Below, in pieces: positions 7,881 to 33,154 of a stretch of 47,029 nt of DNA. Made by a program: the position numbers and the translations under genes. The stretch's first letter is position 1. Each line of letters opens with the position of its first letter. Under the pieces are notes generated by a model, which did not search any database, was not told where the DNA came from, and saw only the letters and a program-made list of their open reading frames with translations. The DNA is taken from positions 1-47,029 of the IMG/VR virus record IMGVR_UViG_3300028596_000022; one strand, 5' to 3'. Source of the stretch: a virus.

Positions 7881-7922
7881 GGCATAACCTCCCTCCCCGC
7901 AAGGGGAGGGAGGGCTTTATGC
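7881..7922. terminator. Composite bidirectional terminator between convergent genes
   Basis: An 11-bp perfect stem (7888-7898 with 7903-7913) closes a GCAA loop and is framed by GGCATAA (7881-7887) and TTATGC (7917-7922). The stop codon of the minus-strand polymerase gene (TAA, 7917-7919 reversed) lies inside the right arm. No long T run follows on the plus strand. Confidence 0.7.
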
Positions 7923-9668
7923 TGCGTCTTTGTGTTCCTCGTCGTACAGTGCCAGCAGTTCGTTCGAAGCAGGCAGGCCCAGCAGTTGTTGTGCGATCAT
8001 GTTACCGTTGACATGACCACCAGTTAGATCGATACCGATCCATCTCCACTGATCCTCCTCCATGCCCTCCACAGATGACAGTTCCGTTTGCGTTGTGAAC
8101 TTGTCAATGTTGAGCATGTCCTGCAACTTAGGATACGTTGACACCACGTCGATGTCGGATACGTGCGTGAACAGTAATGGAACATGTCCTCGCATGTCAG
8201 ACACAATGTCGTCGTCTGGTTCCGGTCCCATGTAAGCAGGTAGTGTGACGATCCAGTTTCCAAGGCCAGGGCTGGCTTGGTCCACCTCCGTTAACATCTC
8301 GTCGGAAGTAGTACCCGCCATCAGCTTGTACTTCTGCAGGAAGAAGTGCAGGTCGTCAGCGATCATCCGTGGCTGGGAGTCGTAGTTCTTGTACTCGGAG
8401 CACTTCAGAAGAGCTGGCAGGCACATGGCGATGTCGTTGGTGGTTTCATCCAGCATTTCTACCGAGATGTCGTCCCACAAGTTGTAGATGCAGTATTCCA
8501 CAGGGAAATACTTCTGCATGAACTGGTGCCACTCTTTCTTCACGAACCCGTCAGCTTCCGTGAACTTAAGCTTGCCGCCCAGCTTGTGCTTACGCAGCAG
8601 ATAGTCCAGGTTGTACTCGGGGTCGTTCGCCGATGCCGTGCGGATACGCTTGTACAGAAGCATCGAGTCACAGATGACAAAGGAAGCCTGGTTGGTCACC
8701 GTGTGCCATTGGTCAATCGGGTTGATTGGAACCTTGGTGTCTTTACCGCCGTCCTTCTTGACCTTGTGTGCCGCGCCTTGGTTCCATTTGAAGTTACGGA
8801 ACTTCTTAGGAATACGGGGATCGCAGAATACGTCAGCCGGGTCATAGCCAGAGTCACGTAAGGCGCGTTCTGATTTGGGAATATCGAACGCCATGTTGAA
8901 GATGGTGACGTAGTCTGGTTGCCATTCATGGGCTGCCTCAAAGCTACGCTGCACCAATTGAGCCGGGAAGTCATGGATGTTGATTTCCATGGTCTGCGGG
9001 TCAATGCCACGTTTCTTTAAGATCGGCCCTAATAACTCTTCAGCCTTGTCGCGCACCAGTTGAATGAAGCGTTCTGGTTTCTTGTCTTCAGCAGACAGCG
9101 CAGACTCATCAATCCAGCTGCCCAGAATGTTCATGCTGACATTCTTTTTGTTGGTCATCGACGCGATAATGATCTCCTCTTCTTCGGAGTTCATATTCGT
9201 CTCGATATCGTAGACCGCCACGTTACTTGGGGTAGGTGTTCCACCCCAGCGATCGCGGTAACCACGCTTGACCAACACCGGTGTAGATACGTCCGCACCG
9301 TACAGGTAAGGGGACCTGGCAAGCTGTCTCAGACCGCCCCGAGCATTGGGGTTGCCGAGGGCGCGAGCGACCTTATTATGTAGTTCATGCTGACTGCAAG
9401 TGAACTTCCGAAGCTGCGAGATAGGTGCCCACGGGCGCTTGTCTTTATGTGTCCTGTACTTTTCCAGAGTGACGTAAAAGTCACGCTGGTAGTTGTGGAT
9501 CAGACGCAGGTTAGGAATAGGGGGACGCCCGTCCTTGCAGTGAATCAGTTCTTTAACGACGACCACGTCATTAGGCGAATAGTCGTTAGCCTTCGAATAA
9601 GTTGCGTGCACACATTCGAAGCGGTCGATCTCTTCCCGATCGGGGAGATTTGGATACATGAATGGCAT
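7917..9668 (-). CDS. B-family DNA polymerase, exonuclease domain plus start of palm
   Basis: The 3'-5' exonuclease is complete by motif: Exo I YDIETN (D154, E156), Exo II FNMAFD (N258, D262) and Exo III YNLWDD (Y395, D399). A palm motif A follows, DVVSTYP (D507-P513), the equivalent of DxxSLYP. The protein then ends at residue 583, so motif B (KxxxNSxYG) and the catalytic YxDTDS of motif C are missing. The 70 residues after motif A (GIDLTGGHVNGNMIAQQLLG and on) do not contain them. The expected full polymerase would be several hundred residues longer. The rest is probably encoded elsewhere as a second subunit, as in T4-like Aeromonas phages with split gp43A/gp43B; no candidate is in this window. 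GGAGCACATC precedes the ATG. Its likely role is phage genome replication. Confidence 0.8.
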   Translation of the reverse strand: MPFMYPNLPDREEIDRFECVHATYSKANDYSPNDVVVVKELIHCKDGRPPIPNLRLIHNYQRDFYVTLEKYRTHKDKRPWAPISQLRKFTCSQHELHNKVARALGNPNARGGLRQLARSPYLYGADVSTPVLVKRGYRDRWGGTPTPSNVAVYDIETNMNSEEEEIIIASMTNKKNVSMNILGSWIDESALSAEDKKPERFIQLVRDKAEELLGPILKKRGIDPQTMEINIHDFPAQLVQRSFEAAHEWQPDYVTIFNMAFDIPKSERALRDSGYDPADVFCDPRIPKKFRNFKWNQGAAHKVKKDGGKDTKVPINPIDQWHTVTNQASFVICDSMLLYKRIRTASANDPEYNLDYLLRKHKLGGKLKFTEADGFVKKEWHQFMQKYFPVEYCIYNLWDDISVEMLDETTNDIAMCLPALLKCSEYKNYDSQPRMIADDLHFFLQKYKLMAGTTSDEMLTEVDQASPGLGNWIVTLPAYMGPEPDDDIVSDMRGHVPLLFTHVSDIDVVSTYPKLQDMLNIDKFTTQTELSSVEGMEEDQWRWIGIDLTGGHVNGNMIAQQLLGLPASNELLALYDEEHKDAA

Positions 9669-9730: not shown

Positions 9731-11032
9731 ATGACACGTCGTCTCAAACAGTGCGCCACGATGGTGCAAGAGGCTATCGCCCACCAGGGTCGAAGCCAAC
9801 TCTTCCGTGATCTCCTCATGATCATCCGCGAGGTCAAGGAAGTCCCTTACGCTGCGCTGGGCAAAGAATTGCTCATCAAGAAGGGCATCGATAAGGTGAT
9901 CGAGAAACACACGGGTCTGAAGATCCCTGTGTACATCGACAACTCGCCGTACATCAATGCCTGGATCTATCCTCCGTACATCGACGCCAACCACGCGGTG
10001 TTCGCCGGTAACCAGTGGCAGCGTGGCGACAACTGGACCCTGGAGTACATCAACAAGCAGTCCAACAAGGTCTTCGGTAAATCCGAATCGATCTTCGGCA
10101 CTGTTGACCGTGAGCGCTCGCGCGTGTCTGGTGACTTCACCAAGATCGAGTGTCCGATGTACGTCACTCGTATGGCCATCAATCATCCAGAGGCGACCCC
10201 TGAGATGATCGTGTCGGTTATCCTGCACGAGATCGGTCACGTCTTCACCTACTTCGAGTTCATGGGTCGAGTGACCACCTTCAACGGCGCACTGCAGGCT
10301 GCCTCAGAAATGTTCTTCCAGTGCAACTCCCGCGAAGACCGCCTCAAGGTTGTCCGTGACGTGGGTGACAAGTTCGGCGTCGATACCGACGACCGCGATG
10401 CATTGATGAACTCCCGCTCCAAAGACGGCTTCATTACCGTCCTGGCCCGCGGTTACGTCATCGACCGCAAGTCGAGCCTGGGTTCTTCGATTTATGACAT
10501 CACCCTGTGGGAGTCGCTGTCTGACCAGTTCAGCATGCGCCACGGCTCCGGCGTTGATGGTGTGAAGATGATGGACCTGATCTACAAGAACAGCGGCGCC
10601 TCGGCCTACCACGGTACCCTGACCCACATCATCTTTACCCTGTTCAAGGTTCTGATGTTCATCGTCATGACCTTCTCGCTGTTCGGCCTGCCTCTGCTGC
10701 TGTTGTTTATCAACCCGGCAGAGAAGATCTATGACGAGCCAGAAGCCCGCATGTTGCGCATGCGTAACGACTTCGTCTCGGGTCTGAAGTCTCCCACCAT
10801 CTCCAAAGAGGAGAAGGCAAAGATCGCTGAAGACGTTAAGGAAATTGATCTGATCATCAAGGACCTGGACGACAAGCGCGGCCTGATTGAACTGTTCTAC
10901 ACCTCCTGCACCCCAGAAGGTCGTCGTCAGTACAGTCAGATGCGCTTCCAGCAAGCCGTAGAGAACCTGGTTGCCAACGACCTGCTCGTGGCCTCTACCC
11001 GCCTGACCAACCTCGCTAACCGCCTTTCCTGA
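9731..11032 (+). CDS. Membrane-anchored HExxH zinc metallopeptidase (M48-like), 433 aa
   Basis: HEIGH at residues 166-170 is a zincin HExxH motif inside a hydrophobic helix (VSVILHEIGHVFTYFEF). About 90 residues later ESLSDQFS (E261, D265) supplies a probable third zinc ligand in the form typical of M48 peptidases (E...[AS]D.). A strong hydrophobic stretch at about residues 300-328, rich in Phe/Leu/Met, should anchor it in a membrane, with a helical C-terminal tail of about 105 residues. There is no signal peptide. It is the first gene of a five-gene plus-strand operon whose other large members also have membrane segments and prohead-protease sites. It may therefore be packaged in the virion or act on the host envelope at ejection or lysis. 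Which membrane and substrate it uses is unknown. Confidence 0.75.
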   Translation: MTRRLKQCATMVQEAIAHQGRSQLFRDLLMIIREVKEVPYAALGKELLIKKGIDKVIEKHTGLKIPVYIDNSPYINAWIYPPYIDANHAVFAGNQWQRGDNWTLEYINKQSNKVFGKSESIFGTVDRERSRVSGDFTKIECPMYVTRMAINHPEATPEMIVSVILHEIGHVFTYFEFMGRVTTFNGALQAASEMFFQCNSREDRLKVVRDVGDKFGVDTDDRDALMNSRSKDGFITVLARGYVIDRKSSLGSSIYDITLWESLSDQFSMRHGSGVDGVKMMDLIYKNSGASAYHGTLTHIIFTLFKVLMFIVMTFSLFGLPLLLLFINPAEKIYDEPEARMLRMRNDFVSGLKSPTISKEEKAKIAEDVKEIDLIIKDLDDKRGLIELFYTSCTPEGRRQYSQMRFQQAVENLVANDLLVASTRLTNLANRLS

Positions 11033-11043
11033 GGAGTGCCACC

Positions 11044-11496
11044 GTGCGCGAACTTAAAATCACCCGCAAGAAGTCGGGTAACATTCTGGCCAACATCAAC
11101 CAGATGCTCACCGCCACCAAAGTCGACGCCATCGATCGTACCGCGGTAACTGAACTGGGCTTTGCTGAGCTGGTAGCAGCCACCCTGCCCCTGTGCCCAA
11201 CTGGCCAAGACCCAGCCGACTTCTACCGTGCCAACTGCATCGAGGGCGTGCGTGCGTTCCTGGACCAGGTGGTCGAGATGGTCAACATCAACCAGGAACA
11301 GTGCCTGCTGGCTGTCTGGGGCGTCTACGCTTACCGCCTGTCGATCATCCAGCCGATGAACCTGACCGACGTGCGGCCTTGTGTGGGTCGCTACATGGCC
11401 AAGTTGCCCGAGCGCCACAGCGCCATGGTTGCCAAGTACCCGACCCTGAACGAGAACTACTGGGCTCTGGCTGACAGTATCTACGTCAACGTTTAA
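11044..11496 (+). CDS. Hypothetical protein, 150 aa
   Basis: The GTG start at 11044 has a good GAGGAG site upstream. The protein is predicted helical throughout, with three cysteines (LPLCPTG, RANCIEG, QEQCLLA) and a hydrophobic patch CLLAVWGVYAYRLSIIQP around residues 80-97 that is too mixed to be a sure membrane segment. I do not recognise it. It sits between the metallopeptidase and the first of three membrane-segment proteins, with 11 bases before it and a near-zero gap after, so it belongs to the same operon and possibly the same complex. Confidence 0.7.
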   Translation: MRELKITRKKSGNILANINQMLTATKVDAIDRTAVTELGFAELVAATLPLCPTGQDPADFYRANCIEGVRAFLDQVVEMVNINQEQCLLAVWGVYAYRLSIIQPMNLTDVRPCVGRYMAKLPERHSAMVAKYPTLNENYWALADSIYVNV

Positions 11497-11506
11497 GGTG
11501 ATCGCG

Positions 11507-12844
11507 ATGAAGATGATCACTGAGAACCTGACAGAGGAGTTGTTTACCGACGACCCTCTGATTCCCAAGGGGATCATCACGGCCTACGAGACGATCAAAC
11601 GAGATCGAATGGTAAGCCAAGAGATGGTGAGCCCCTACATCCAGAACTTCCCGATGAACGTGTCGCTCAGCAACTTTACCGTTGAGCCATCGGAGAAAGG
11701 ATTGGAAATCGCGCTGGAAGGCTTTGCGGTGCTGTTTAAGGTGACTGCCGGTGTTTTGCTGGTGTCTGCCCTGGGTGTGTGCATCTTCAACTTCATACGC
11801 TCCCGTAAAGCGGCTGAAGCCACTGCAGATGCGGCCACCAATGGTGTACTCCTGCATAAGGAAATCACCAAGCTGGTTCAGGGTATCCGTGCAGCCAAAG
11901 GCTTCCATGACCGTACCATCAAGATCAAGGCAAGTGACATCCCGCTGGGTCCAACCCGGCGTGCCTTGGGCCTGCATGGCGAGATTATCTACCCCGAGTG
12001 GGCAGATCGTTTCTACGCCTACGGTCACGACCAGCACTTCACCAACGCCATTGCCTCCAAGGTAGCAACCGGTCAGTTCTTCAGCATCACCGAGCATCTC
12101 ATGACGCCGATGGCTGATTACATGTCGGATCTGGCAGGTCGTGTCAAGCAGCTGACCAAGATGGTGGATAACCTCCCAGCCACCATCAACTCCGGTCGCC
12201 TGGAACAGGTCGCTCGTGACATCGAGCAACTGGACACCCGTTCTATCCGTGGCACGTTCCTGGGTCACCTCGAACGAGTTTATGGCAAAGAGCTGCCGCA
12301 GCCTCGGGTAACCTTCCAAGCCAACAGCGCGGAGTTACTAGATGCACGGGTAACGGCGCTGAAGGAGTTCTACGACAGCACTCGGGACGACAAGAAGTTC
12401 GTCCAGAACCACTACCAGGCCAACGTTGATCGTTGGAAGGCTGGTGATGTCGAACAGATGCTGGGGCGTATCCCAGAAATCTGCGCCCAGGCTGCAAAGC
12501 TTGGCGCTGCTCCTTCGCTGTCGACAGGTAAGTCCATCGTGGACGAATGCGAGCAACTGCGTCGCAAGATCTCTCCGATCGAAGTACCTGAGATGATTGA
12601 TCAGGCGCTTAAGAACACCCTCGAAAGTATCCGACTCGATTCTATTGCGTCGGTGAACCTCTTCGAAATGGTGATCAATGAACAGCGCCAGTTCACCATC
12701 TACATCCAGGACATCCTGAACCAGACCATCGAGTGGGCAACCGCTGTGGGTGCGTTCACCAAGCCAGCTGATCCACAAGCAGCTCGGCGGTTGATGAGCG
12801 ACGCTCAAGATGCAACCAAAGCCACGCGCAAGGTAAAACTTTAA
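11507..12844 (+). CDS. Inner-head-type virion protein with membrane segment, 445 aa
   Basis: I chose ATG 11507 (site AAGGTG) over the GTG at 11498, which would place the start inside that site. The first 71 residues end in EIALE, matching the [A/S]-x-E site of phiKZ-group prohead proteases. The predicted mature chain would begin GFAVLFKVTAGVLLVSALG, a membrane helix at about residues 73-97, followed by positively charged RSRK. The remaining 345 residues are helical, with coiled-coil-like stretches. This layout (propeptide, cleavage site, membrane helix, long helical body) is shared with the next two genes and suggests they are paralogues. A role inside the head and after ejection is inferred; no enzyme motif is seen. 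Confidence 0.65.
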   Translation: MKMITENLTEELFTDDPLIPKGIITAYETIKRDRMVSQEMVSPYIQNFPMNVSLSNFTVEPSEKGLEIALEGFAVLFKVTAGVLLVSALGVCIFNFIRSRKAAEATADAATNGVLLHKEITKLVQGIRAAKGFHDRTIKIKASDIPLGPTRRALGLHGEIIYPEWADRFYAYGHDQHFTNAIASKVATGQFFSITEHLMTPMADYMSDLAGRVKQLTKMVDNLPATINSGRLEQVARDIEQLDTRSIRGTFLGHLERVYGKELPQPRVTFQANSAELLDARVTALKEFYDSTRDDKKFVQNHYQANVDRWKAGDVEQMLGRIPEICAQAAKLGAAPSLSTGKSIVDECEQLRRKISPIEVPEMIDQALKNTLESIRLDSIASVNLFEMVINEQRQFTIYIQDILNQTIEWATAVGAFTKPADPQAARRLMSDAQDATKATRKVKL

Positions 12845-12852
12845 GCCACCCT

Positions 12853-12882
12853 GCCCCCTACAGGTTCACGCTTGTAGGGGGC
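12853..12882 (+). promoter_or_regulatory. Hairpin directly before the RBS of the 1246-aa gene
   Basis: A perfect 10-bp stem (12853-12862 with 12873-12882, 10-base loop) ends two bases before the AAGGAG ribosome binding site (12885-12890), which is followed by TTTTTT and the ATG at 12897. It could be a partial terminator that lowers expression of the downstream gene, an RNA processing site, or a translational control element. It lacks the GGCATA/TATGCC frame of the block-ending terminators. Confidence 0.5.
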
Positions 12883-12896
12883 TCAAGGAGTTTTTT

Positions 12897-15800
12897 ATGA
12901 AAGAGTACGATCTGGCCAGCTTGGCCCAGGCGTCTGACAAAGATCTGGTTGAGTTCCTCGGTCAGAACGAGCGTGTCATCGGTGAGGTGACTGCCCACAT
13001 TGCCAACCTGGAACGCCTCAAGGGTACCAGTCAGGCACATGCGCTTGGCTACCAGGAATACCTGCCCGACGAAATCACCATGCAGGACTTTGACACTCAC
13101 CTGTCGAAGAAAGGCTACCAGATGTCCACCGAGGCTCTGCACACCATCCTGCTCGTGGCCGCATCCGCCGCTGTCGTCGCTGGCATCGGTATCATCGCCT
13201 ACAAGCTGATCAAAGCTTCGATGGCCAAGGAGCCCAAGTCCGCCGACTTCCTCAAGAAACAGAAGGAAGTTCAGCAGTTCGCCATGCATTTGATCAAGGT
13301 GCAGTGGAGCGATGCCGCCGCCCCTACCCGTGAAGCGCTGAAGACCAAGTTCCTGGCCGACTGCGTCAGCGAAGTAACTGCGAACCTGTCCGAAGCAGAC
13401 CTGCTGAACGACCCGTTCAACGCCTACGTGCGCAGCGAGTTCAAGACCTCCGGCGTTCCGTACATGGCACTGGTTGCCGGCATGCGTGGTCCAGCCTCGA
13501 TCTTCTCTGGCGCTGCCACCATCTACCTGACCAACGTCAAGGAATCGCTGGAAGCCTTCCGCCGTGAGTTCCTGGACGTGATCGCTGGTGCGCCTGATAT
13601 CACCGACCACCAGATGATCAACCTGGTCAATGGCCTCAAGTGGAACCAGATCGACAACGGTAACGCTGCCGGTGTTCAGGCTCTGATGGGTTGGATCAAT
13701 GCCATGGGTATCCCGTCCAGCAACCGTCTGGAAGAAGCCCTGCGCAATGCCAACGACATCCTGTCGGCCCCGGCCACCATCGACCAGATCAATGCCTACG
13801 ACCAGCACATCCAAGATGAGCTGATTGGCGAGGGCACTGTTCCCAAGGTCATTGCAATGATCCAGTCGCTCAAGGCCACCGGCAAGTACATCGAAGGTGC
13901 CAAGGGTAACTTCGTGGCTGGCGAGAAACGCTCGCAGCAAGTGGTTGACCTGTTCAAGGCCCAGATCGAACGTGCGCAGCTGCTGACCGACACCATCCCT
14001 CTGATCTCGCCACTGGTGACCCTGGAGTCCGACAACATCGTTCGTCGCTCCAAGTGCATCGCCAATGCCGGCAAGGCCCTGCTCAATGCCATTGAAGATG
14101 TGGCAGACAAGCTGGAAGACAAGGAAGCGGCCAAAGAGATCCGCACCGCGTTGGACGAGATTGCCCGTGCGTCCAAACAAGTGCTGAAAATGAAAACCGA
14201 GTCGCTGGTAGAACTTCCTGCCCCGGTCAGCTACGGCACCATGATGGACCTGCAAGCCAAGTCCGTGTGGATGGAACTGCTGAAGTCTTTGGCAGTGGCC
14301 GCGATGATCGGCCTGGCCGTGTTCGCCATCCAGGCGCTGGTATTGTCTATGTTGGGTCTGCAGTCGATGGCTGCATCCTTCGCTGGCGGCATCGTTTATT
14401 TCAACAAGAACGGTAAGCGTATCACCCCTGGCGAAGCCGCCGACGCCATTGCCAAGACCGTTGAGGAAAAGCGTACTGGCAAATACGGCGCGACCCTGGT
14501 AACCGGCCAACGCAATCTGCCATTCATTCTGAACCGTAGCCATCTGGACTCTGGCTTCAAGGACGTGGCTGCTGGCGTTGAGAAGTCGCTGAACGAGTTT
14601 GCCAACGAGCTACCGCGCGGGGGTGAGATTACCAGCGAGGCTATGGTTGCCGCCGCCAACAGCGGTATGAAGCACCTTAAGCGCACCATCTCCATTTTGG
14701 AAGGTCGTTTGAAGGGCATGAAGGTCAAGGTACCAGGCGGCGACCCGTCGGTTAAAGCCACCACCCACAACCTGCGTGACGCGATGGATGCTTACGTTGA
14801 CGAGTGGTTCAACCCTGAAAAGGCGAACTACGCTATCGTGCGTCAGGGCATCGACACCACCTGGTTCGGCGTCATGGACCCGAAGATGGCCGAGCACGTG
14901 GACGCCAACGCCAAGGTTCTGACCGACGGCATCGTACGCTTTGCCAAGTCCATCCCGAACGCAAGTAAGGATGAACTGACCAAGCTGTCGCCAGAGGCCC
15001 AAGAAGCCCATGCCAACTTCAGTCAGGCTCAGGCATACCTGGCAACCCTCGGCTTCGTCATTACTGAAATCACCAAGAAGGCAATTGCCGACGGTGGTAA
15101 AGGTATGCAGGCGGTAAAAGACAACCTCAAGATGAAGGGCGAGGATATTGGCGGCATCGAGGTCGAGGATGACTTCGGTGGTGACGACATCGTTCAGTAT
15201 CAAGAGGATCTCGATCCCTTGGTTGACATTGCAGACGCCATGGGCGACCTGTATGTTGACGAACAGACTGATGCAGTGATGGCCATCGAGAAGATGAGCG
15301 TCAAGACCAAGCGCTTGCTGATGACCGCTGGTATCGTCCTCGCATTGGGTGCTGGTGCTTATCTGCTGCTGTCCATGTCCCAGAACCGCCGCAGCCCTTC
15401 CTCGTTTGCAACTGACAAGATGTTCAAGCAAATCCAGAAGGACCTGGAGGCCAGCTTGGCATCTGAAGAGTTTGCAGCCCGGATGCAGGCTTCCAGTGAG
15501 GAGCTGGGCGATGCCTTGCAGAAGGACTTCGACCGCATGCGCAAGCAAGCGGAGAGCCTTCGCCAGAAGACCGCGCAGCCGACCGAGAAAGAAGTCGGCG
15601 GCCAGCGTGTTGACGCAGGTGCCGCGCGCCCTGCTTCTGTGCATCCGCGCATCGGCGAGACCGGTTCCCCAGTGGCCGGGTCCAACAATGCGTCTCAGGC
15701 CAACCCTGAAACCACTTGGATCAACGACGTACCACACAGCACCGAGGCCCTACAGATTGCCAAGGAAGTGGACGAACTGATCGCCAACCTCGGCAAGTTC

Positions 15801-16637
15801 GACTACAAGGGTGTGCTGCGTAGTCGTCTGGTTGAGCGTGCCCCTGGCATGGTTGCTTTGAACATGGCCACCGGTGGCTTCGACAAGGCTAGCGAGATCC
15901 TTTCGGGTGACCGCACGCGTCGTGTCGATAAGTTGATGGACCTCATGACCCACGTCATGGAGAACATCGTTGAACCGGTCATCGATGTGGTCCGCGGTCA
16001 GGGCGATACCAATCCACAGGCTGAGCAGGTCTACGACAAGGTTGTGGCTGCCATCGAAAAGGCAACCGCCGATGCTACTGCCGAACGACTGCTCGACGAG
16101 GCCTACATGGCTCGCACCGAGGAAGACTTCGCAGACTGGTCCAAGCCTTGCACCGAGTCCGATGTGGTGGAAGCCATGGGTCGCTTCGATCCGAAGTGCG
16201 TGCAGTCGGCCGAGCGCTACTACCTGGACGAGGCCAAGTCTTACCACAGCTTGTCGCAAGACCTGGACTCGATGTGGAAGGACAACAAGGACTTCCTCAA
16301 CCGCGAAGTGGGTGATCGGTTCAACGAGCTGAAGGGTAACCGGGACGCAACCTCCAAGCTCATCCGCCGCATGGAAGAGTTCAAGCCAACCTTCAACGTC
16401 ATTGCGCGTTCGATCAAGGCTCATGTGGCCATCAGCGACGTCATCTTCGAGGCCAGTGAATTCTGCCTGCGGGTGCATCGCAGTGTGCAGCGTGAGCTGA
16501 TCAAGTCCCTGCAGTTCCACCAGATGAAGGTGGCCGAGCTGGATGCCCGTATGGGTAAACAGTCCGAGACGCTGGGCAAGCTCTCGAAAGAGATGCAGGA
16601 TCAGATCAACCGCTTCAATGATCGCAAAGATACCTAA
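12897..16637 (+). CDS. Giant helical virion protein with three membrane segments, 1246 aa
   Basis: The protein has three hydrophobic segments at about residues 80-105 (ILLVAASAAVVAGIGIIAYK), 460-492 (SLAVAAMIGLAVFAIQALVL) and 805-828 (LMTAGIVLALGAGAYLLLS), separated by long helical regions of 300-350 residues. Two are preceded by [A/S]-x-E sites: STE79 before A80, and AIE798 before K799. It may be three copies of the single-segment architecture of its neighbours fused in one chain, since each hydrophobic segment is followed by basic residues and a helical body. The stretch around 870-920 is polar and Gly/Pro-rich, probably a linker. The start has AAGGAG. No enzyme motif is seen. It is probably packaged, perhaps in the inner body, and cut into two or more parts. 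Confidence 0.65.
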   Translation: MKEYDLASLAQASDKDLVEFLGQNERVIGEVTAHIANLERLKGTSQAHALGYQEYLPDEITMQDFDTHLSKKGYQMSTEALHTILLVAASAAVVAGIGIIAYKLIKASMAKEPKSADFLKKQKEVQQFAMHLIKVQWSDAAAPTREALKTKFLADCVSEVTANLSEADLLNDPFNAYVRSEFKTSGVPYMALVAGMRGPASIFSGAATIYLTNVKESLEAFRREFLDVIAGAPDITDHQMINLVNGLKWNQIDNGNAAGVQALMGWINAMGIPSSNRLEEALRNANDILSAPATIDQINAYDQHIQDELIGEGTVPKVIAMIQSLKATGKYIEGAKGNFVAGEKRSQQVVDLFKAQIERAQLLTDTIPLISPLVTLESDNIVRRSKCIANAGKALLNAIEDVADKLEDKEAAKEIRTALDEIARASKQVLKMKTESLVELPAPVSYGTMMDLQAKSVWMELLKSLAVAAMIGLAVFAIQALVLSMLGLQSMAASFAGGIVYFNKNGKRITPGEAADAIAKTVEEKRTGKYGATLVTGQRNLPFILNRSHLDSGFKDVAAGVEKSLNEFANELPRGGEITSEAMVAAANSGMKHLKRTISILEGRLKGMKVKVPGGDPSVKATTHNLRDAMDAYVDEWFNPEKANYAIVRQGIDTTWFGVMDPKMAEHVDANAKVLTDGIVRFAKSIPNASKDELTKLSPEAQEAHANFSQAQAYLATLGFVITEITKKAIADGGKGMQAVKDNLKMKGEDIGGIEVEDDFGGDDIVQYQEDLDPLVDIADAMGDLYVDEQTDAVMAIEKMSVKTKRLLMTAGIVLALGAGAYLLLSMSQNRRSPSSFATDKMFKQIQKDLEASLASEEFAARMQASSEELGDALQKDFDRMRKQAESLRQKTAQPTEKEVGGQRVDAGAARPASVHPRIGETGSPVAGSNNASQANPETTWINDVPHSTEALQIAKEVDELIANLGKFDYKGVLRSRLVERAPGMVALNMATGGFDKASEILSGDRTRRVDKLMDLMTHVMENIVEPVIDVVRGQGDTNPQAEQVYDKVVAAIEKATADATAERLLDEAYMARTEEDFADWSKPCTESDVVEAMGRFDPKCVQSAERYYLDEAKSYHSLSQDLDSMWKDNKDFLNREVGDRFNELKGNRDATSKLIRRMEEFKPTFNVIARSIKAHVAISDVIFEASEFCLRVHRSVQRELIKSLQFHQMKVAELDARMGKQSETLGKLSKEMQDQINRFNDRKDT

Positions 16638-16646
16638 GGAGGTAAT

Positions 16647-18011
16647 GTGAGCGACTATTCCATGAAGATGGAAGAGCTGCTCGAAGACCTTGAAGGCAAT
16701 GATTGGGTGGCTGACCCTGACGCGCCTCTGAGATTAGAGGACGAAGAAGGGAACGTCATCCCAATGCCTGGGGACAACGAACAGCCTTCGGAAGAGGAGC
16801 TGGACGATGCCGTATTCCTAGCACATGGTCGCGAAACCGAATTGGTCAACATCATGGAAATGCTCCAGAGTTCTGGCGGCGTATCCCGTGACATGGCCAT
16901 GCAGTTCCGCGACCTGCTTCCGCCAGAGATGGCGATGGAATCGTTCACTGTCCAGGTGACGCAAACCAACCATGTCATGGCCATGGAGTATGTGGGGACT
17001 GCAATCAAGATCGCGGCCGCTGCCGGCGTGATCGCAGTATTGGGTGCGGTGGGTTATCTGATCTATCGCATTACCAAGTCCCGCAAACGCATGCCTAAGA
17101 ACAAGTTGGACAAAGCGGTATCTGCGGCATACGGCACTGCTGAGGAAAAGCTCAAGGTTGTGTTGGAAGGGCTCAAGCATGAGTACCCTGAAATCGAGCA
17201 CGTCGAACTCAAGTGGAACAAGGAAGAGGCGCTTGTCCAGATGGCAATCCAATGCCAGATGCAAGAGCTGGACCTGCGCATGATGACTGGGACCTACAAG
17301 TCCTTCGTTGGCATGGTGGGTTCTGATGCCTTGGTGCAGGCTAATGAGATCAAGAAGTTCTTTGATACGTCAGTCTTCCCAGAACTTGACAAGATGTCCA
17401 AGGCAGGTACGGGCAAGGATATTGACGACATCACCAAAAAGATCCAGGAATTCAAATTCACGGATATGGTGTCCAAACACCTTGATCGTTTCGGTCACGA
17501 CATGCAGGTCAACTTCGAGCGCCCTGATCAGGTCTGTGAGAAGTTCCGTGCCAAGTATTCCCGTAGCGTGAGTGTTGAGGAGGCGGCCAGTAAGCTGAAG
17601 GGTGTTAAGCCCAACGGTGTGGACGTCCCTGAGCAGGCTGCTGTTGGTCTGTACAAGGCACAGGACATCATGACCCAGATGTTGGTCAAGGTGAAGAACT
17701 ACGAGAAGAAGCTGGAGAAGACGAAAGAACTCCCAGCCGATTACGTGGCTCAGATCAAAGGCGTGTTGGAGAAGTGCAAGCAGCCTCTCAAATCCTTGGG
17801 TGATGTATTCAACATCCTGGAGATGGAGATTGCTTCGCAGACCCGCTGTGCCAAGATCAAAGGCCTGGCTGTAGCGGAAGGTTACAAGAACGTAGCCAAC
17901 CACTACAAGGAGAAAGCGTTGACCGACAAGGAACACCGCGCATCCTACCGAGCCTGCGTCAAAGTGCTGGACAAGTCCTTCGACGACATCCGTGGCGCCA
18001 TGAAGTTGTAA
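16647..18011 (+). CDS. Inner-head-type virion protein with membrane segment, 454 aa
   Basis: The GTG start at 16647 has a near-perfect AAGGAGGTAAT site. The first 98 residues are very acidic and end in EMAME98, with a second site VMAME114 only 16 residues later; both match the [A/S]-x-E prohead-protease rule. The membrane helix follows at about 116-141 (VGTAIKIAAAAGVIAVLGAV), then a basic stop (TKSRKRMPKNK) and about 310 helical residues. The same plan occurs in the two upstream genes. The acidic propeptide resembles removable segments of phiKZ-group inner-head proteins, which are thought to act during head assembly. This is the last gene of the operon and is followed by a strong hairpin. Confidence 0.68.
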   Translation: MSDYSMKMEELLEDLEGNDWVADPDAPLRLEDEEGNVIPMPGDNEQPSEEELDDAVFLAHGRETELVNIMEMLQSSGGVSRDMAMQFRDLLPPEMAMESFTVQVTQTNHVMAMEYVGTAIKIAAAAGVIAVLGAVGYLIYRITKSRKRMPKNKLDKAVSAAYGTAEEKLKVVLEGLKHEYPEIEHVELKWNKEEALVQMAIQCQMQELDLRMMTGTYKSFVGMVGSDALVQANEIKKFFDTSVFPELDKMSKAGTGKDIDDITKKIQEFKFTDMVSKHLDRFGHDMQVNFERPDQVCEKFRAKYSRSVSVEEAASKLKGVKPNGVDVPEQAAVGLYKAQDIMTQMLVKVKNYEKKLEKTKELPADYVAQIKGVLEKCKQPLKSLGDVFNILEMEIASQTRCAKIKGLAVAEGYKNVANHYKEKALTDKEHRASYRACVKVLDKSFDDIRGAMKL

Positions 18012-18050: not shown

Positions 18051-20987
18051 TTACTTGTCAGCCAAAGCTGGGAGGTGCTTCAGGAATTGAACATCCACGT
18101 CCTCCTCCACCGTGAACGTGCCATCTGGCAGTGCGGTCAGTTTCTTACGCACAGACAGACGACCACTGTTGTCGGCCATGGAGATCAGTGGATAGTTCTT
18201 GTCGCCGCCAAGGTTGCTAACCCGTACAGTGATGACCTCACTACCCGCATTCTTCTTGATGGCCTCAGCCGTTTCCAGGGCCTCAATCCGATCCTTGGCA
18301 AAGTCGGTTGCCAGCTGCTGGATGATGGTGGTGCGGATGCCGGACTTAAGCACTTCGTTGTTCCAACCAGCCTCGGTCATGTAGACCTGGACCTTAGGCG
18401 ATTGCTCGGCATCGAGTACAACAGAAGAACCACTCTCCACCACACAGCGAACCTTGCCATTCGTTGCGATTGGCTTGAGGTACAGCTTGGTCTTTTCCAG
18501 CACCGTCTTGTTGGTGTTGCCCATGTCGGTATCGGACCACTGCAGCATCTTGGTGCAAACGAGCTTCAGGTAGTCTTCAGTCGACTTGTCGTTGGCGAAG
18601 TAGTACCGACCATCGAACAACGTCAGGTCAATCTGACGGGCAAGCTGACGAGGAGACACCAGGATCTTGTTACCGTTGGCATCGAGGACAAAGTCACCCT
18701 TGAACTTCCGGTACTGCTGAACACCGTTCTTGATTACCGGCTCACCAACCTGGTGCAGCAGATACGTGACCACCTTACCGTTTACCACATCAACCTTCAT
18801 CATGCTCGGGTTGTTGGGGTCCATCTCGAACACCGGCTCAGTGTACAGCTCTGGCACGTCGTCGTCGTAGACTTGGTAATCAGCTTCAGTGGTAATGCTG
18901 CGGCTACCTGCCCACAGGTACTTCAGCGGGCTACCCAGTTTAACCTGGACACGCTCCTGCAGGATACCTACCGAGTCATACGGAAGCATGTTGCGGTTCT
19001 TGTCGTTGTCGATGTCGCCCTCTTTCATGTCGACCACGGTGTAGTCGGACACGGTGTAGATCACGTCGAACGTGACCGACAGATTAATCAAGTGATCCAG
19101 AGGGCCGTCACCGAACATGGAGAAGTTACGCAGGGTCATCGCGTCATTTGCGTTGATTGCGTAATTGGTCTCCAGCAAGAACTCATACACCCGATCACCA
19201 TCTTGCTTGGCGATCAGCGTACCATTCAGGTAAGCCTTGGCCGATTCACCCGGTGGGGTGTAAGCAAGCTGCACATGCAGTTGGTAATCTTCCAGGTCCT
19301 TATACAGATCGCCACTCTTGGTGAGCAGGTGAATAAGGTAGCCCTTCTCCGTACGCGACACCGTGAAGGTCTGTGCGGCCTGTAGGTCCAGCTGCAGGGA
19401 TGGGTTCTCCATCCAGAACTGGCGCCCTTCAATGGTCGGAGCATCGAGATAGTAGGCACGTACCTCAAAGCTCTCGTTTGCCGCATCCAGGACCCAATGG
19501 AACGGGCTGAAGCGATAACCTGCAGACGACACAGCGCGGGCCATGGCTTCTGGCTTGAGCTGATACAGGTCATTGATCTCAGACTGGCTCACAATGGTCA
19601 TGCCGCCATCCACGGACCTGAACAGTACCGAAGGATGGATGGTGACCGAGTCAGTGTTGTGACTGACGCCTGGAATGCCATTGAGGTCGGCCATACGAAC
19701 GATGAGGTTCTCTACGGCCCCTGAGATCGGCGTGATGGTGTATTTGTCCTGCGGGGACTCCATGACACGGGTTGCGTTCAAAGTACGCTTGGTGATGGCG
19801 TCTACGTCCTTTACGGAGGTATAGTCCATGTCACCCAGAACAAAGTCCAGGTTAACAGGCGTAATTGGAATGTTGATCTCACCCGTGTTGTGTTGCATGA
19901 CACGGTTACGCAACTCTTCCAGCGTCAGGGCAGGCTTGCCGCCAGTGGTGTACTGGTCGGAGTAAACCGAGTACGTGGAGAGCAGGCCCCAGTTCGCGGT
20001 GTACTTGCCTTGGTCTTCGCTGTCAAGGTCAAGCCACTCCTCACTCCAGTCGTTGGCCGAGAAGCCTTCGAACACCATGTCGTTCACACCTTTGGTGGTG
20101 TAGACGTCAATGCGCAGCTCGCCAGTAACTTGGCCTGTGGTCTGGTAGATCTGAGGCAGGTAGCAGTCGATCACCTTGTCGTACAGCCGGACCAACACGG
20201 TTGGGTCATATGGGTCAAACACTTGGCGAGTATAGTTGACCTTGATCTCTTTCCAGTAAGGGACGCCCGCAGCGTCGCGCGCCCGAACATAGGCACGGCA
20301 GTACGAGTAGAGGTCGTTGAAAGCGATACGGGTGTTCCACACCGTTGCCTGGTTGAGCGGGTAGACCTGGCTGTTGATCGCCATCTGCGACATATTGGCC
20401 AAGAGGCGCAGCATTGGAACGCCGTCGCTACCAGCCACCTGGTCAACTTCTAGCAGGTTACCGTTGGATGGGTTCAGTACGCCATTCAGAGGAGTGCCGT
20501 ACACAACGGTCGGCTCGCCCACAGGAGGAATGCGGAATTCAATCGGATACTCTGCAGTGAAGGTGTAGCCGTTGCAGGTGAAGTTGGAGTTCTTCGGCAT
20601 CACCAACTTCTTCATACCACCGGCCGTTACTTCGACCGCATAACGAATAACTTCATCGCGGCTCACCAGCAAGGTGATTGGTAGAACAGGTGGCTTATTG
20701 AAGACGTTGAGGAAGTCCCGATCCGTCATGTGCAGATGCAGGTCTTCCATAGTCAGTGCAAGGCCAGGGTAGCGCTTGCGGTTCAATACGTCAATGCCGT
20801 TGAGTACGTGCGCACCACATGCAGCGGCGTATTCCCACATGAGCATAAAAGGACTGGTGGGATCGACCAGGCGGTAGTTACCGGCAAGGTTGTCATCTAC
20901 GGCATCCAGAACGTCGAGCGCTTTGGCAGCTGGGTCAAAGCGGGCGAAGTCCATCGCCTTCATGAGATCTTCACTGGTCATGGTCAT
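18051..20987 (-). CDS. Large structural protein, possible gp6-like baseplate wedge, 978 aa
   Basis: A 978-residue, strand-rich protein without membrane segments or enzyme motifs, of the size expected for a large baseplate subunit. The N-terminal 120 residues are helical; residues about 125-165 (KLVMPKNSNFTCNGYTFTAE and onward) have the look of the beta-clip region in T4 gp6/phage gpJ-type wedge proteins. Much of the rest is beta-rich, with repeated Asp/Asn/Tyr-rich turns. A long C-terminal segment, about residues 800-960, resembles the extended tail of such proteins. This identification is by overall pattern and is tentative. The start overlaps the stop of the upstream gene by four bases (ATGA type), so the two are translated together. 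Structure comparison against gp6 would settle it. Confidence 0.5.
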   Translation of the reverse strand: MTMTSEDLMKAMDFARFDPAAKALDVLDAVDDNLAGNYRLVDPTSPFMLMWEYAAACGAHVLNGIDVLNRKRYPGLALTMEDLHLHMTDRDFLNVFNKPPVLPITLLVSRDEVIRYAVEVTAGGMKKLVMPKNSNFTCNGYTFTAEYPIEFRIPPVGEPTVVYGTPLNGVLNPSNGNLLEVDQVAGSDGVPMLRLLANMSQMAINSQVYPLNQATVWNTRIAFNDLYSYCRAYVRARDAAGVPYWKEIKVNYTRQVFDPYDPTVLVRLYDKVIDCYLPQIYQTTGQVTGELRIDVYTTKGVNDMVFEGFSANDWSEEWLDLDSEDQGKYTANWGLLSTYSVYSDQYTTGGKPALTLEELRNRVMQHNTGEINIPITPVNLDFVLGDMDYTSVKDVDAITKRTLNATRVMESPQDKYTITPISGAVENLIVRMADLNGIPGVSHNTDSVTIHPSVLFRSVDGGMTIVSQSEINDLYQLKPEAMARAVSSAGYRFSPFHWVLDAANESFEVRAYYLDAPTIEGRQFWMENPSLQLDLQAAQTFTVSRTEKGYLIHLLTKSGDLYKDLEDYQLHVQLAYTPPGESAKAYLNGTLIAKQDGDRVYEFLLETNYAINANDAMTLRNFSMFGDGPLDHLINLSVTFDVIYTVSDYTVVDMKEGDIDNDKNRNMLPYDSVGILQERVQVKLGSPLKYLWAGSRSITTEADYQVYDDDVPELYTEPVFEMDPNNPSMMKVDVVNGKVVTYLLHQVGEPVIKNGVQQYRKFKGDFVLDANGNKILVSPRQLARQIDLTLFDGRYYFANDKSTEDYLKLVCTKMLQWSDTDMGNTNKTVLEKTKLYLKPIATNGKVRCVVESGSSVVLDAEQSPKVQVYMTEAGWNNEVLKSGIRTTIIQQLATDFAKDRIEALETAEAIKKNAGSEVITVRVSNLGGDKNYPLISMADNSGRLSVRKKLTALPDGTFTVEEDVDVQFLKHLPALADK

Positions 20988-22123
20988 ACGACAGTACCTG
21001 TAGTTGGAGTGTTACCTGGGACAATGATCCGGCTAGGGTTCTGCCCATTGTAAGCCATCGGGGTCAGCGCCCCCTTGGCAAAGCGGCTAGACCAAGCAAT
21101 GCGAGAATCACCCAGACGTTCTTCGTACACCTCACGAGAAACCCAGCGCTGCATTGTCTGCTCCTCTGGATCAATCCAGAAGTACGTGTCGTATGTGAAC
21201 AGGTGCCAGAGATCTTCATTGATCTGGACCATGTTCTTGTCACGAAGGGCGGGGTGCATGTTCGCATTGAACGAGGCAACGATGTTGTTGAATTCAGTGA
21301 ACACGATCGGGTCGAACGTATCCAGGCCATGGCACTTCCAGTTGACCGAGATCTGCTGACCTTCTTGGTTGAAGGGGGAGTCCAGCGACATGTTGGCGCC
21401 GGTAGCAGTTGGGGCAACGTAAGGATATGCAATGGTAGACCACCAACTGGTGATCCGACGCTTGTTGGCGTCTAGGGAGAAACGGTAAATCCGGCTGTGG
21501 TAGTCGATCCGATTTTGAATGATCGAATCCATGTACGGAACCATGTCCCCCTCATACACCAGGGAGGCATAACACACCCAGACGAAAAGCATCATTATTA
21601 TGATGTTACCCGTCCCGTTACGCAGCGTCGTATTCAGGTCCCATACCCTGTAGTTCTTGATCGTGTCATCGATCATACTCCAGGCTTCATGGTGGTTACC
21701 CTCTACCGAGGTGAATGTGCCTGGTGCGATTTCCTGCCAACCGGATTGGGAAACCAAACCGTTAGACAGCCACGGGATAAAAGCCTGCTCGTGGTTGGCC
21801 AGCGGGGAGCCTTTGCCGTCACGCCACACACCGACAGGATCAAGCATGGCTCGAATGGCCCGTGGAAGGCTAATGCCGTCCGCACCACCGATCATGCTGA
21901 AAAACGGGCGGAATGCACGCAGGTTGCCATCGGTCAAGTTAAGTCTGGGTCGCGTGAAGAACGTGAGACCAAACTGTTCTCGAACGGGCGGCATCGTGGG
22001 GTGTGTCCCCAGGCTGTTAATGCCTCTCAGCTGTTCGTAGATCGAGGTTACGGAACTACCCTTGCCTCCGATCCGCGAAATGAAATCAAAAATCTTCTCG
22101 TATTCTTCGCGGCTTAAACTCAT
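20984..22123 (-). CDS. Structural protein partner of the 978-aa gene, 379 aa
   Basis: It overlaps the 978-residue gene by four bases and precedes it, so the pair is made together. It has a clear GGAGGGG site. The sequence is rich in Phe, Trp, Tyr, Arg and Asn, with motifs such as FGLTFFTRPRLNLTDGNLRAF, common in structural tail proteins of large phages. There is one hydrophobic stretch near residues 170-190 (IIIMMLFVWVCYASLVYEGD), short and followed by acidic residues, which may be a buried core helix rather than a membrane span. I do not recognise the family. Co-location with the wedge candidate suggests tail or baseplate. Confidence 0.6.
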   Translation of the reverse strand: MSLSREEYEKIFDFISRIGGKGSSVTSIYEQLRGINSLGTHPTMPPVREQFGLTFFTRPRLNLTDGNLRAFRPFFSMIGGADGISLPRAIRAMLDPVGVWRDGKGSPLANHEQAFIPWLSNGLVSQSGWQEIAPGTFTSVEGNHHEAWSMIDDTIKNYRVWDLNTTLRNGTGNIIIMMLFVWVCYASLVYEGDMVPYMDSIIQNRIDYHSRIYRFSLDANKRRITSWWSTIAYPYVAPTATGANMSLDSPFNQEGQQISVNWKCHGLDTFDPIVFTEFNNIVASFNANMHPALRDKNMVQINEDLWHLFTYDTYFWIDPEEQTMQRWVSREVYEERLGDSRIAWSSRFAKGALTPMAYNGQNPSRIIVPGNTPTTGTVV

Positions 22124-32830: not shown

Positions 32831-33154
32831 ATGTTGGATCGAAACAAGTTCGGCGAAGAGATAATCTCCGCCGATCCTGAGATGCATATCCACCACAATG
32901 AATTCTACAAGCGGAATCCTCTGGCCCAAAAGCTGGTAGGTTCTCCTTTAAGGCGGATTACCCTAATGCATGTATTAGTTGGTATCCTCTTAATTGGAAT
33001 TGGAGCTACATATGTCGTACAAAAACTGGTCGGCCCTGGACATGGTGTTGGTACTGGAGTTGGCCCTGCTGAAGGATGGGGACAAACACGAGAACGTCCT
33101 CTGCTCCTTGAAGAATCTCGCCAGTCCAGACAAGACCTGGAAGCGCGGCGATGA
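32831..33154 (+). CDS. Small single-span membrane protein, 107 aa
   Basis: AAGGAGAG just before the ATG strongly supports translation. About 44 polar residues precede one hydrophobic span, LMHVLVGILLIGIGATYVV, at about 45-63, followed by a Gly-rich and then charged C-terminus. Its last 143 bases overlap the next gene in another frame, so the tail after the span may be constrained by that gene. The orientation is not clear. It has no lipobox, so I do not call it a spanin. Function unknown. Confidence 0.5.
   Translation: MLDRNKFGEEIISADPEMHIHHNEFYKRNPLAQKLVGSPLRRITLMHVLVGILLIGIGATYVVQKLVGPGHGVGTGVGPAEGWGQTRERPLLLEESRQSRQDLEARR

Follow-up and report, generated by a model that had tools for sequence, protein, structure and literature searches.

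A conserved head-gene slot of phiKZ-type phages, enlarged in one lineage, pairs an M48/Ste24-like metallopeptidase with predicted processed membrane proteins

The present study asks what purpose may be served by a block of five phage genes that combines a predicted membrane-anchored metallopeptidase with three large proteins carrying membrane segments, most of them next to predicted prohead-protease sites. The block lies in a stretch of 47,029 nucleotides (the whole of IMG/VR record IMGVR_UViG_3300028596_000022 from 1 to 47,029, here called the window). In nucleus-forming phages the injected DNA comes to lie inside a membrane vesicle. How this vesicle forms and how molecules cross it are still posed as questions in the accessible portions of two reviews (PMC12908238, PMC13282480), the second of which cites tomography implicating the inner tube of the tail in vesicle formation. 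A vesicle that arises at DNA entry can come only from host parts or from components brought in the virion.

All five open reading frames run in the same direction on the + strand (9731..18011), separated in order by 11, 1, 52 and 9 bases, exactly as the first-pass annotation had placed them. They encode a predicted M48/Ste24-like metallopeptidase of 433 aa (9731..11032), a 150-aa protein (11044..11496), and three gp86-type proteins, the third of 448 aa (11498..12844), the fourth of 1246 aa (12897..16637) and the fifth of 454 aa (16647..18011), of which the third and fifth are predicted processed membrane proteins and the fourth, with three membrane segments, a probable polyprotein. The third gene probably begins at ATG 11507 rather than at GTG 11498, since the GTG sits inside an apparent ribosome-binding site; the corresponding gene of a relative, L004, begins at the codon equivalent to ATG 11507. 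In L004 the five frames are likewise uninterrupted, the peptidase is 81% identical to that of the window, and all five genes are under purifying selection, with dN and dS of 0.13 and 0.88 for the peptidase, 0.16 and 0.88 for the 150-aa protein, 0.17 and 1.32 for the third protein, 0.34 and 1.17 for the fourth (at 59% identity the least conserved of the five) and 0.22 and 1.20 for the fifth. The cassette is bounded by a convergent gene on the - strand (18051..20987) for a phiKZ gp87-type protein (phrog_3248, E 3.7e-269).

The block fills the conserved head-gene slot of phiKZ gp84-gp85-gp86 and SPN3US gp45-gp46-gp47, which is found also in PCH45 and PhiEaH1, and for this reason the first-pass proposal of an undescribed system does not hold: both the locus and the processing of its proteins have been published. 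The phiKZ record annotates the gp84, gp85 and gp86 gene as structural head proteins, and the available text of PMC5694885 describes SPN3US gp45 as a head protein processed at ASE-20, gp47 as an essential head protein whose ejection was inferred, cut at AVE-79 with a further cut expected at ALE-111 beside a membrane helix, and phiKZ gp86 as cut at SQE-122. With SPN3US the window shares place, order, a peptidase-family protein with an N-terminal propeptide and a protein of about 150 aa, and its large proteins resemble gp47 in their long propeptide, AxE-type site and membrane helix right behind; SPN3US, however, has one gp47 gene where the window has three, one of which encodes a 1246-aa protein bearing three membrane segments and a further site in its interior. 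Place, order and the signature at the site are likewise shared with phiKZ, which differs in having one gp86-type gene whose helix after the site is amphipathic, with no clear membrane segment. Assignment of the window to the phiKZ group was borne out by a 140-kb contig with an identical peptidase gene, which also encodes ChmA, the nuclear-shell protein that marks the nucleus-forming Chimalliviridae (E 1.5e-27 to phiKZ ChmA; phrog_4795, E 5.7e-70). ChmA was detected in 40 of 49 cassette-bearing records; SPN3US is among the nine misses, and a diverged version there may escape detection.

The peptidase is homologous over its full length to the phiKZ gp84/SPN3US gp45 family (phrog_2767, E 1.2e-89, residues 10-428), and tblastn with it found matches in 201 phage records at E 1e-3. 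Its HEIGH zinc-binding motif (residues 166-170, 10226..10240, +) and, within ESLSD (10511..10525, +), Glu261, the probable third zinc ligand, and Asp265 are invariant in an alignment of 64 sequences, most of which were fetched by the HExxH-type motif itself. New here is that HExxH and ExxxD, the latter scored as E..[ASTG]D, are kept in 71/71 full-length peptidases reached through the neighbouring gene (best 80 of 180), a count from which neither redundant copies nor contigs of the window itself were removed. The first-pass description of an M48-like HExxH enzyme with a membrane anchor was thus sound: a membrane helix is predicted at residues 307-325 (10649..10705, +; Kyte-Doolittle 2.54), and 62 of 67 non-redundant homologues have a hydrophobic segment after residue 60. 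Classification as M48/Ste24-like, with zinc-dependent proteolysis predicted, follows from the HExxH and ExxxD motifs, which ZMPSTE24/Ste24 and BepA share; the single predicted membrane helix and the N-terminal propeptide site are features of the window peptidase set against those enzymes. Pfam PF01435 (M48) gave no match to the window peptidase at E 0.1 and of the 64 family members it matched 23 at no more than E 0.1, the strongest at E 1.3e-4, while a profile match to ZMPSTE24 reached E 0.0019. Of the first 7 of 50 rows in a fold comparison, six are Ste24/ZMPSTE24 or BepA and one is a putative Zn-dependent peptidase, at Z 5.5-7.8, a range attainable by chance, and the Foldseek match of the model to ZMPSTE24 was weak (E 0.65). 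In the accessible literature the only statement found on an M48 or other peptidase at this locus is the general remark of a comparative paper that a conserved zincin-like peptidase of the group could process virion proteins (PMC7824862), and no gp84-86 result is named in the available parts of PMC10299810 (core genome) or PMC10449902.

A further new element is a putative propeptide of the peptidase itself, residues 1-14 ending MVQE (9731..9772, +). The column of Glu14 holds E in 62 of 64 family members, and two residues ahead of it 56 of those 62 have A, S, G or C, the window having V; in the structure model (pLDDT 83.9) residues 1-14 fall below 50. The peptidase seems itself to be a substrate of the prohead protease, with a capsid-targeting-like propeptide.

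How far these genes travel together was assessed in two samples. Since the first was fetched by the pattern HE[ILV]GH (best 80 of 89), its HExxH count is circular, and the count quoted above is that of the second, fetched through the neighbouring gene; the two overlap, with 47 of the 73 second-sample peptidases absent from the first, from which the peptidase profile was derived. The peptidase was present in 73 of 78 testable loci reached through the neighbouring gene (best 80 of 180), two of the 80 flanks being too short, three of the five contigs without a peptidase within reach carrying one elsewhere, two of the 73 peptidases looking like edge pieces and one locus (L160) having it on the opposite strand. 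In 60 of 67 non-redundant loci the cassette is followed by a gp87-type gene pointing towards it. Among 88 small proteins at the slot, profile iteration joined 86 into one family, and one profile-profile comparison gave 96% probability and E 1.1e-9, which assigns the 150-aa protein to the family of phiKZ gp85 and SPN3US gp46. The travelling core is the peptidase, the protein of about 150 aa and usually one gp86-type gene; gp86-type genes vary in number and length among relatives, and at least four (L028, L045, L062, L116) have no gp86-sized gene between peptidase and gp87. The expectation that all five always travel together is thus not supported, and the form with five genes, three of them gp86-type, was met with nowhere outside the lineage of the window.

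Hydrophobic segments begin at residue 78 of the third protein, at 83, 465 and 807 of the fourth and at 122 of the fifth, and [AS]xE sites end 4, 4, 9 and 8 residues ahead of those at 78, 83, 807 and 122. The earlier claim that helices lie beside prohead-protease sites is hence correct for these four, and fails for the segment at 465-483 of the fourth protein (14289..14345, +), which has no [AS]xE site in the window. In the third protein the predicted site ALE-74, followed by a helix at 78-96 (11711..11785, +), is identical in three relatives. The fourth has a predicted site STE-79 before a helix at 83-101 (13125..13199, +), reading STE, SME and SME in three relatives, and a predicted internal site VMAIE-798 before a helix at 807-825 (15282..15371, +), reading AIE, AQE and ATE there at a local identity of 0.45. 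Three relatives preserve 9 of its 25 candidate [ASGC]xE sites, so that sites cannot be picked out by conservation alone; what distinguishes them is adjacency to a helix and the VMAxE form. We take the 1246-aa protein as a probable polyprotein, with cuts behind residues 79 and 798. The fifth protein has predicted sites AME-98 and VMAME-114 before a helix at 122-140 (16932..17066, +), the second site being CLE in the two relatives; its structure model is poor (pLDDT 66.5, pTM 0.42). Within the 30 window ORFs chosen as genes VMAxE is present four times, where 0.2 would be expected and 300 shuffles give at most 3; its carriers are the major capsid protein, the internal head protein, and the fourth and fifth proteins. 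A general enrichment of M[ASG]xE in head proteins was dropped, there being 11 occurrences against 5.6 expected, with shuffles reaching 13.

Homology of the three large proteins is detectable with profiles only: direct similarity searches with them against the phage collection gave no match, nor did a nucleotide search, and PHROGs and Pfam gave no family match at a convincing E, matches to SesA, YtzH, phrog_12722 and others (E 0.001-1) being judged chance. Matches between adjacent segments of the fourth protein were also discounted, the segments having been cut with overlap. With profiles the third protein matched L096 (E 1.5e-5) and, in profile-profile comparison, a group of 56 gp86-type proteins (E 1.8e-7); the fourth matched L096 at only E 0.019, its N-terminal profile reaching E 1.8e-6; the fifth matched L101 (E 7.6e-9) and reached 97% probability and E 7.5e-11 between profiles, the homology in all three being confined to the N-terminal part. 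The 56-protein group, from which SPN3US-like and phiKZ-like members were left out, matches phiKZ-like gp86 at 5.5e-18 and SPN3US-like gp47 at 3.5e-6, and it is through such other gp86-type proteins that the three are linked to the SPN3US gp47 group, to which none gave a direct profile match. Position, an [AS]xE propeptide before a predicted membrane-active helix, and this homology together place the three among gp86/gp47-type proteins, as judged from sequence.

The placement of [ASG]xE ahead of membrane segments exceeds chance. Of the 60 non-redundant loci that end at the convergent gene, 31 hold proteins with an early membrane segment, 37 in all; in 32 of these 37 an [ASG]xE lies no more than 15 residues ahead of the segment, where 11.6 were expected and none of 2000 flank shuffles gave more than 21. 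The site precedes the segment in 8 of 13 proteins from another 33 non-redundant loci (2.8 expected, shuffle maximum 7). A signature before the cut, [FY][TS]xxx[ST]...[ASC]xE within the first 220 residues, is also new, and is found in 71 of 105 non-redundant cassette proteins of at least 350 aa (1.4 expected, maximum 6 in 500 shuffles) versus 32 of 1331 other ORFs in that size range. All three large window proteins carry it, and so does the window's internal head protein, so that it may mark substrates generally rather than the gp86-type family. A signature profile from whose training set phiKZ, its closest contig and the lineage of the window were left out, other phiKZ-like relatives being retained, locates the published site of phiKZ gp86 (E 3e-6) and matches the fifth window protein at E 0.011 and the third at E 0.23; the fourth and SPN3US gp47, which is without the strict signature, gave it no significant match. 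In a 29-row alignment of sites the invariant Glu is partly by construction, 26 rows having been picked by a pattern that includes it.

Equally new is the nature of the helix after the site. A membrane segment, called at a 19-residue Kyte-Doolittle mean of 1.6 rather than by a trained predictor, follows the site in 50 of 90 proteins; elsewhere in these proteins 1.2% of 1629 windows contain one. The 90 rows were themselves selected through the site pattern, they are not phylogenetically independent, and at least four (L071, L079, L100, L105) look like false matches. In the remaining 40 the mean hydrophobic moment after the site is 0.61 versus 0.40, and the helix there is predicted to be mostly amphipathic; bilayer spanning is consequently not universal.

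We read the block as an enlarged, lineage-specific version of a conserved phiKZ-type virion module that is cut to unmask helices, ejected and active at membranes, a reading we hold to be about evenly poised between right and wrong. The module would consist of a membrane-bound M48/Ste24-like metallopeptidase, a small partner and gp86/gp47-type ejection proteins, taken into the prohead by N-terminal propeptides; the prohead protease would cut after [AS]xE and leave the gp86-type proteins with a membrane helix, amphipathic in many relatives, at the new N-terminus, an unmasking that would resemble that of a fusion peptide. At infection the module proteins may exit the head together with DNA and vRNAP, lodge in the inner membrane of the host and help to build a conduit for DNA and protein, perhaps also the early-infection vesicle; within this membrane the peptidase may have proteins of phage or host as its substrates. 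Ejection proteins of short-tailed phages (T7 gp14-15-16, P22 gp7-16-20, N4) are head-packaged, ejected and membrane-active, and the window proteins are likened to them in function, but are carried by a phiKZ-type jumbo phage.

A role confined to assembly seems to us rather unlikely; here the segments would anchor the prohead to the inner membrane as it grows, the metallopeptidase would serve as another protease of morphogenesis, and neither would act in the next host. Such a role would suit the assembly of nucleus-forming phage capsids on the inner membrane, as described in the accessible text of PMC12908238, and the suggestion that the zincin-like peptidase processes virion proteins (PMC7824862), but gp45 and gp47 are retained in mature SPN3US virions, and 47(am1) mutant virions are intact but non-viable, according to the available text of PMC5694885. 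That mutant is no test of a tether, because it is truncated only at Q482, behind the membrane helix; the cut, however, frees the propeptide and not the helix, so that a tether held by the helix would not be released, and the apparent processing of the peptidase by the prohead protease also argues against this role. We find it unlikely, too, that the ejected proteins and peptidase instead strike host proteins of the membrane (defence, translocons, respiration) with no part in a channel or vesicle. Host takeover is what Ali et al. suggest for gp47, on the ground that genes at its place diverge fast (PMC5694885, in the portion available), and the variable number and length of gp86-type genes and the low conservation of the 1246-aa protein (59% against L004) agree with this, but even very distant phages retain the catalytic residues and the partner of about 150 aa, which resembles a core function more than a host-specific effector. 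That the hydrophobic helices belong to structural head proteins, are packed inside capsid or inner body and stay clear of membranes throughout would fit the 40 of 90 relatives with no clear membrane segment after the site, phiKZ gp86 scoring none, but is very improbable given Kyte-Doolittle values of 2.1-2.6 over 19 residues, typical of bilayer helices, and a site/helix arrangement conserved beside a peptidase that bears a membrane helix.

Returning to the ejected, membrane-acting module, a more specific form is that it is virion-delivered machinery for remodelling the host inner membrane at entry, in which gp86-type proteins both form the conduit and seed the early-infection vesicle and the M48 peptidase licenses or remodels it, the window's lineage having tripled the set and made one member a polyprotein that yields two membrane proteins on cutting; this we advance only tentatively and think doubtful as a whole. 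Bacillus phage AR9 has a homologue of the peptidase, gp51 (a zincin protease, M48; E 4.8e-11 to the gp84 profile), with no convincing gp85-, gp86- or gp87-like neighbour in the 50 kb around it and no ChmA match in the genome, which counts against a role of the peptidase in the vesicle only. The tomography mentioned at the outset, with its pointer to the inner tube of the tail, also weighs against our main reading.

The locus pairs virion-type proteins bearing a membrane-active helix, probably unmasked at head maturation, with a predicted membrane-bound peptidase, and the pairing is conserved across the group. If the proposal is true, the cassette would supply candidates for the proteins that form the vesicle and for those of its channel, and the list is short: it comprises three gene families, for which phiKZ has homologues and SPN3US a mutant (gp47).

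The cassette at 9731-18011 (+) is a real head module, conserved in phiKZ-type phages, partly described before and enlarged here. Its five co-directional genes, separated by 11, 1, 52 and 9 bases in the 47,029-base IMG/VR record, are bordered on the 5′ side by a DNA-polymerase-type gene (7917-9668, -) and on the 3′ side by a convergent gp87-type gene of 978 aa (18051-20987, -). All five frames are uninterrupted in a relative locus, L004, whose peptidase is 81% identical to the window's, and the dN and dS pairs against L004 (0.13 and 0.88, 0.16 and 0.88, 0.17 and 1.32, 0.34 and 1.17, 0.22 and 1.20 for genes 1-5) indicate purifying selection, so all five are genuine genes. For the third, 11507 is a more probable start than 11498; an ORF of 561 aa (12858-14543, -), antisense to the selectively constrained 1246-aa gene that it overlaps, looks spurious. 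The phiKZ gp88-position protein adjoining the gp87-type gene (phrog_3196, 20984-22123, -) has a hydrophobic segment at residue 171. In phiKZ, SPN3US, PCH45 and PhiEaH1 the order is likewise peptidase, protein of about 150 aa, gp86-type protein, convergent gp87-type gene and then head proteins, although PCH45 and PhiEaH1 carry an additional gene of about 345 aa in between, and the upstream polymerase, on the minus strand in the window, is in phiKZ on the same strand with gp83 intervening. The phiKZ record annotates the gp84, gp85 and gp86 genes as structural head proteins, and the SPN3US genes, counted in the record, are gp45, gp46 and gp47, in positions consistent with the passages of PMC5694885 cited here. 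In those passages gp45, a head protein of mid-to-low abundance, is cut at ASE-20; gp47, an essential head protein, is cut at AVE-79, with maturation expected at ALE-111 adjoining a predicted membrane helix, and 47(am1) mutant particles look normal and are non-viable; the cut sites are SQE-122 in phiKZ gp86 and SQE-113 in 201phi2-1 gp148. Their authors inferred ejection of gp47, speculated on a host-membrane role and found its phiKZ counterpart not easily identifiable. A zincin-like metallopeptidase, conserved and uncharacterised in the phiKZ group and possibly of the phrog_2767 family, is suggested to act in maturation in the cited part of PMC7824862, and some records label the peptidase gene M48 or BepA-like protease. 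The first-pass annotation was therefore wrong to propose an undescribed system.

The peptidase is a member of phrog_2767 (E 1.2e-89), and at E 1e-3 its relatives are spread over 201 phage records; among the matches listed, nearly all bearers exceed 200 kb, one exception being Halocynthia phage JM-2012 (167 kb). A 140-kb contig with an identical peptidase gene encodes the nuclear-shell protein ChmA, which places the phage among the nucleus-forming ones. In two other virus records, G041 (locus L069) and G007 (L014), the ChmA match spans internal stops (one TAG; one TGA and one TAA), reflecting sequencing error, pseudogene or recoding. An alignment of 64 homologues shows no variation at Gly134, the HExGH residues, Glu261 and Asp265, and some at every other position. 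Because the homologues were mostly fetched with the HExGH pattern itself (best 80 of 89), a second, partly overlapping sample was taken via the neighbouring gp87-type gene (best 80 of 180), in which the peptidase was present in 73 of 78 testable loci and HExxH was followed by E..[ASTG]D in 71 of 71 full-length copies. At locus L160 the peptidase strand is opposite to the usual relative to the gp87-type gene, and at L101 the ORF containing the peptidase runs to 941 aa, roughly double what is usual, through a fusion, a missing stop or a wrongly placed upstream start. At a cutoff of E 0.1 Pfam M48 matched 23 of the 64 members (best 1.3e-4), the window peptidase not among them, and a PDB search with the family profile reached human ZMPSTE24 (E 0.0019), the two motifs aligning in order. 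The AlphaFold2 model (pLDDT 83.9, pTM 0.85) gave a fold list whose first seven rows were Ste24/ZMPSTE24, BepA and one putative Zn-dependent peptidase (Z 5.5-7.8, a range that chance can also produce) and a weak Foldseek score (E 0.65); 19 predicted viral structures matched it at E 0.001 or better, those named being jumbo-phage virion structural proteins and phage proteins labelled peptidase, zincin protease or BepA-like. Taken together, motifs, profile matches, model fold and viral structures point to a likely active M48/Ste24-like peptidase. Of the 64 members, 62 have Glu in column 14, and 56 of these 62 carry A, S, G or C two residues earlier (the window's MVQE is among the other six); the column aligns with the processed ASE-20 of SPN3US gp45, and residues 1-14 of the model have pLDDT <50, so the peptidase is probably a prohead-protease substrate throughout the family.

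Among gp86-type proteins, profile-profile comparison (each E value being for one single comparison) linked phiKZ-like gp86 with the main group along most of the protein, at 99% and E 5.5e-18, and linked with that same group the N-terminal parts of the window's fifth, third and fourth proteins at 7.5e-11, 1.8e-7 and 1.8e-6; SPN3US-like gp47 was weaker (88%, 3.5e-6), and window and SPN3US groups had no direct profile-profile match. The propeptide, site and helix region is common to the window's third, fourth (N-terminal part) and fifth proteins (E 1.4e-4 to 2.4e-7). The convergent gene bounds 60 of 67 non-redundant loci; 31 of these 60 hold, in total, 37 proteins >300 aa with a first membrane segment at residues 60-200, and [ASG]xE ended <=15 residues before it in 32 (11.6 expected, maximum 21 in 2000 shuffles); a further 33 non-redundant loci gave 8 of 13 (2.8 expected, maximum 7). 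Scored regardless of hydrophobicity, the signature [FY][TS]xxx[ST]...[ASC]xE occurred in 71 of 105 non-redundant cassette proteins >=350 aa (shuffles 1.4, maximum 6 in 500), compared with 32 of 1331 other ORFs in this size range; nine of the 34 cassette proteins lacking it are SPN3US-like, with a related but different sequence preceding their ALE. A profile of the signature region hit the published site of phiKZ gp86 (E 3e-6) and, in the window, the fifth protein (E 0.011) and the third (E 0.23), with no match to the fourth or to SPN3US gp47. A membrane segment followed the site in 50 of 90 proteins; of 1629 windows taken from other parts of these proteins, 1.2% had one. The other 40 proteins had a mean maximum hydrophobic moment of 0.61 versus 0.40, on average the 86th percentile of their own protein; from these two features, the common property of gp86-type proteins is a predicted membrane-active helix at the N-terminus that would result from the cut.

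Three gp86-type proteins occur in the window, L004, L009 and L002/L003 (peptidase identical) and one in most other loci, with two signature-bearing proteins in tandem at L055, L107 and L110, so that duplication in this slot, flanked by the peptidase and gp87-type genes, seems to recur; judged by length, L121 and L124 carry such a tandem as well. In the fourth window protein a second site, VMAIE-798, precedes the third membrane segment by nine residues, with A.E kept in three relatives (the middle residue varies and local identity is low); this protein's segment at 465 lacks a conserved site. VMAxE occurs four times in 30 chosen window genes (0.2 expected): in the fourth protein, at 114 in the fifth, in the major capsid protein (35650-37968, +; VMATE-163) and in an internal head protein (24972-26207, +; VMACE-134). 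The latter two are likely maturation sites and a key to the phage's protease specificity, and VMAIE-798, as a second site and one of this shared form, suggests that the 1246-aa protein is a polyprotein yielding two membrane proteins. The gp86 signature is found in the internal head protein as well and may thus mark protease cuts in inner-body proteins generally. A 382-aa protein of phrog_7727 (38277-39425, +) has the signature within its first 220 residues, as a possible further substrate or by chance, and a 107-aa ORF (32831-33154, +) has a strong membrane segment, scoring 2.25 on the Kyte-Doolittle scale at residue 45.

Genes, motifs, conservation and linkage are established here from sequence; packaging, processing and gp47 essentiality were established by others in relatives (cited passages of PMC5694885). 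Cutting inside the head would convert precursors into membrane-inserting proteins, which would exit with the DNA and virion RNA polymerase, become inserted in the inner membrane and contribute there to a conduit and perhaps also to the early-infection vesicle, and the peptidase may trim them or a host membrane protein. Roughly 28 copies of gp45 and 20 of gp47 per SPN3US virion, estimated from spectral counts scaled to a 12-copy portal, would suffice for a ring or patch. Against this model count a few relatives without a gp86-sized gene and, in the cited part of a review (PMC13282480), tomography implicating the tail's inner tube in vesicle formation. An assembly role for the cassette proteins is a serious alternative, since proheads form on the inner membrane (PMC12908238, in the part cited) and the known gp47 mutant, in its description as cited, keeps coding for its helix. 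Also weighing against the model, the Bacillus phage AR9 has a peptidase homologous to gp84 (profile E 4.8e-11) with no ChmA match in its genome and no convincing cassette neighbours in the 50 kb around it, so the enzyme's basic role cannot be tied solely to the nucleus or vesicle of ChmA phages; this AR9 gp51 (L171; 40783-42060, -), an M48-type zincin, is solitary among unrelated genes. With the unmasking of a membrane helix by cutting as a proposed rule and an invariant peptidase, the question of vesicle and entry becomes testable in existing phages.
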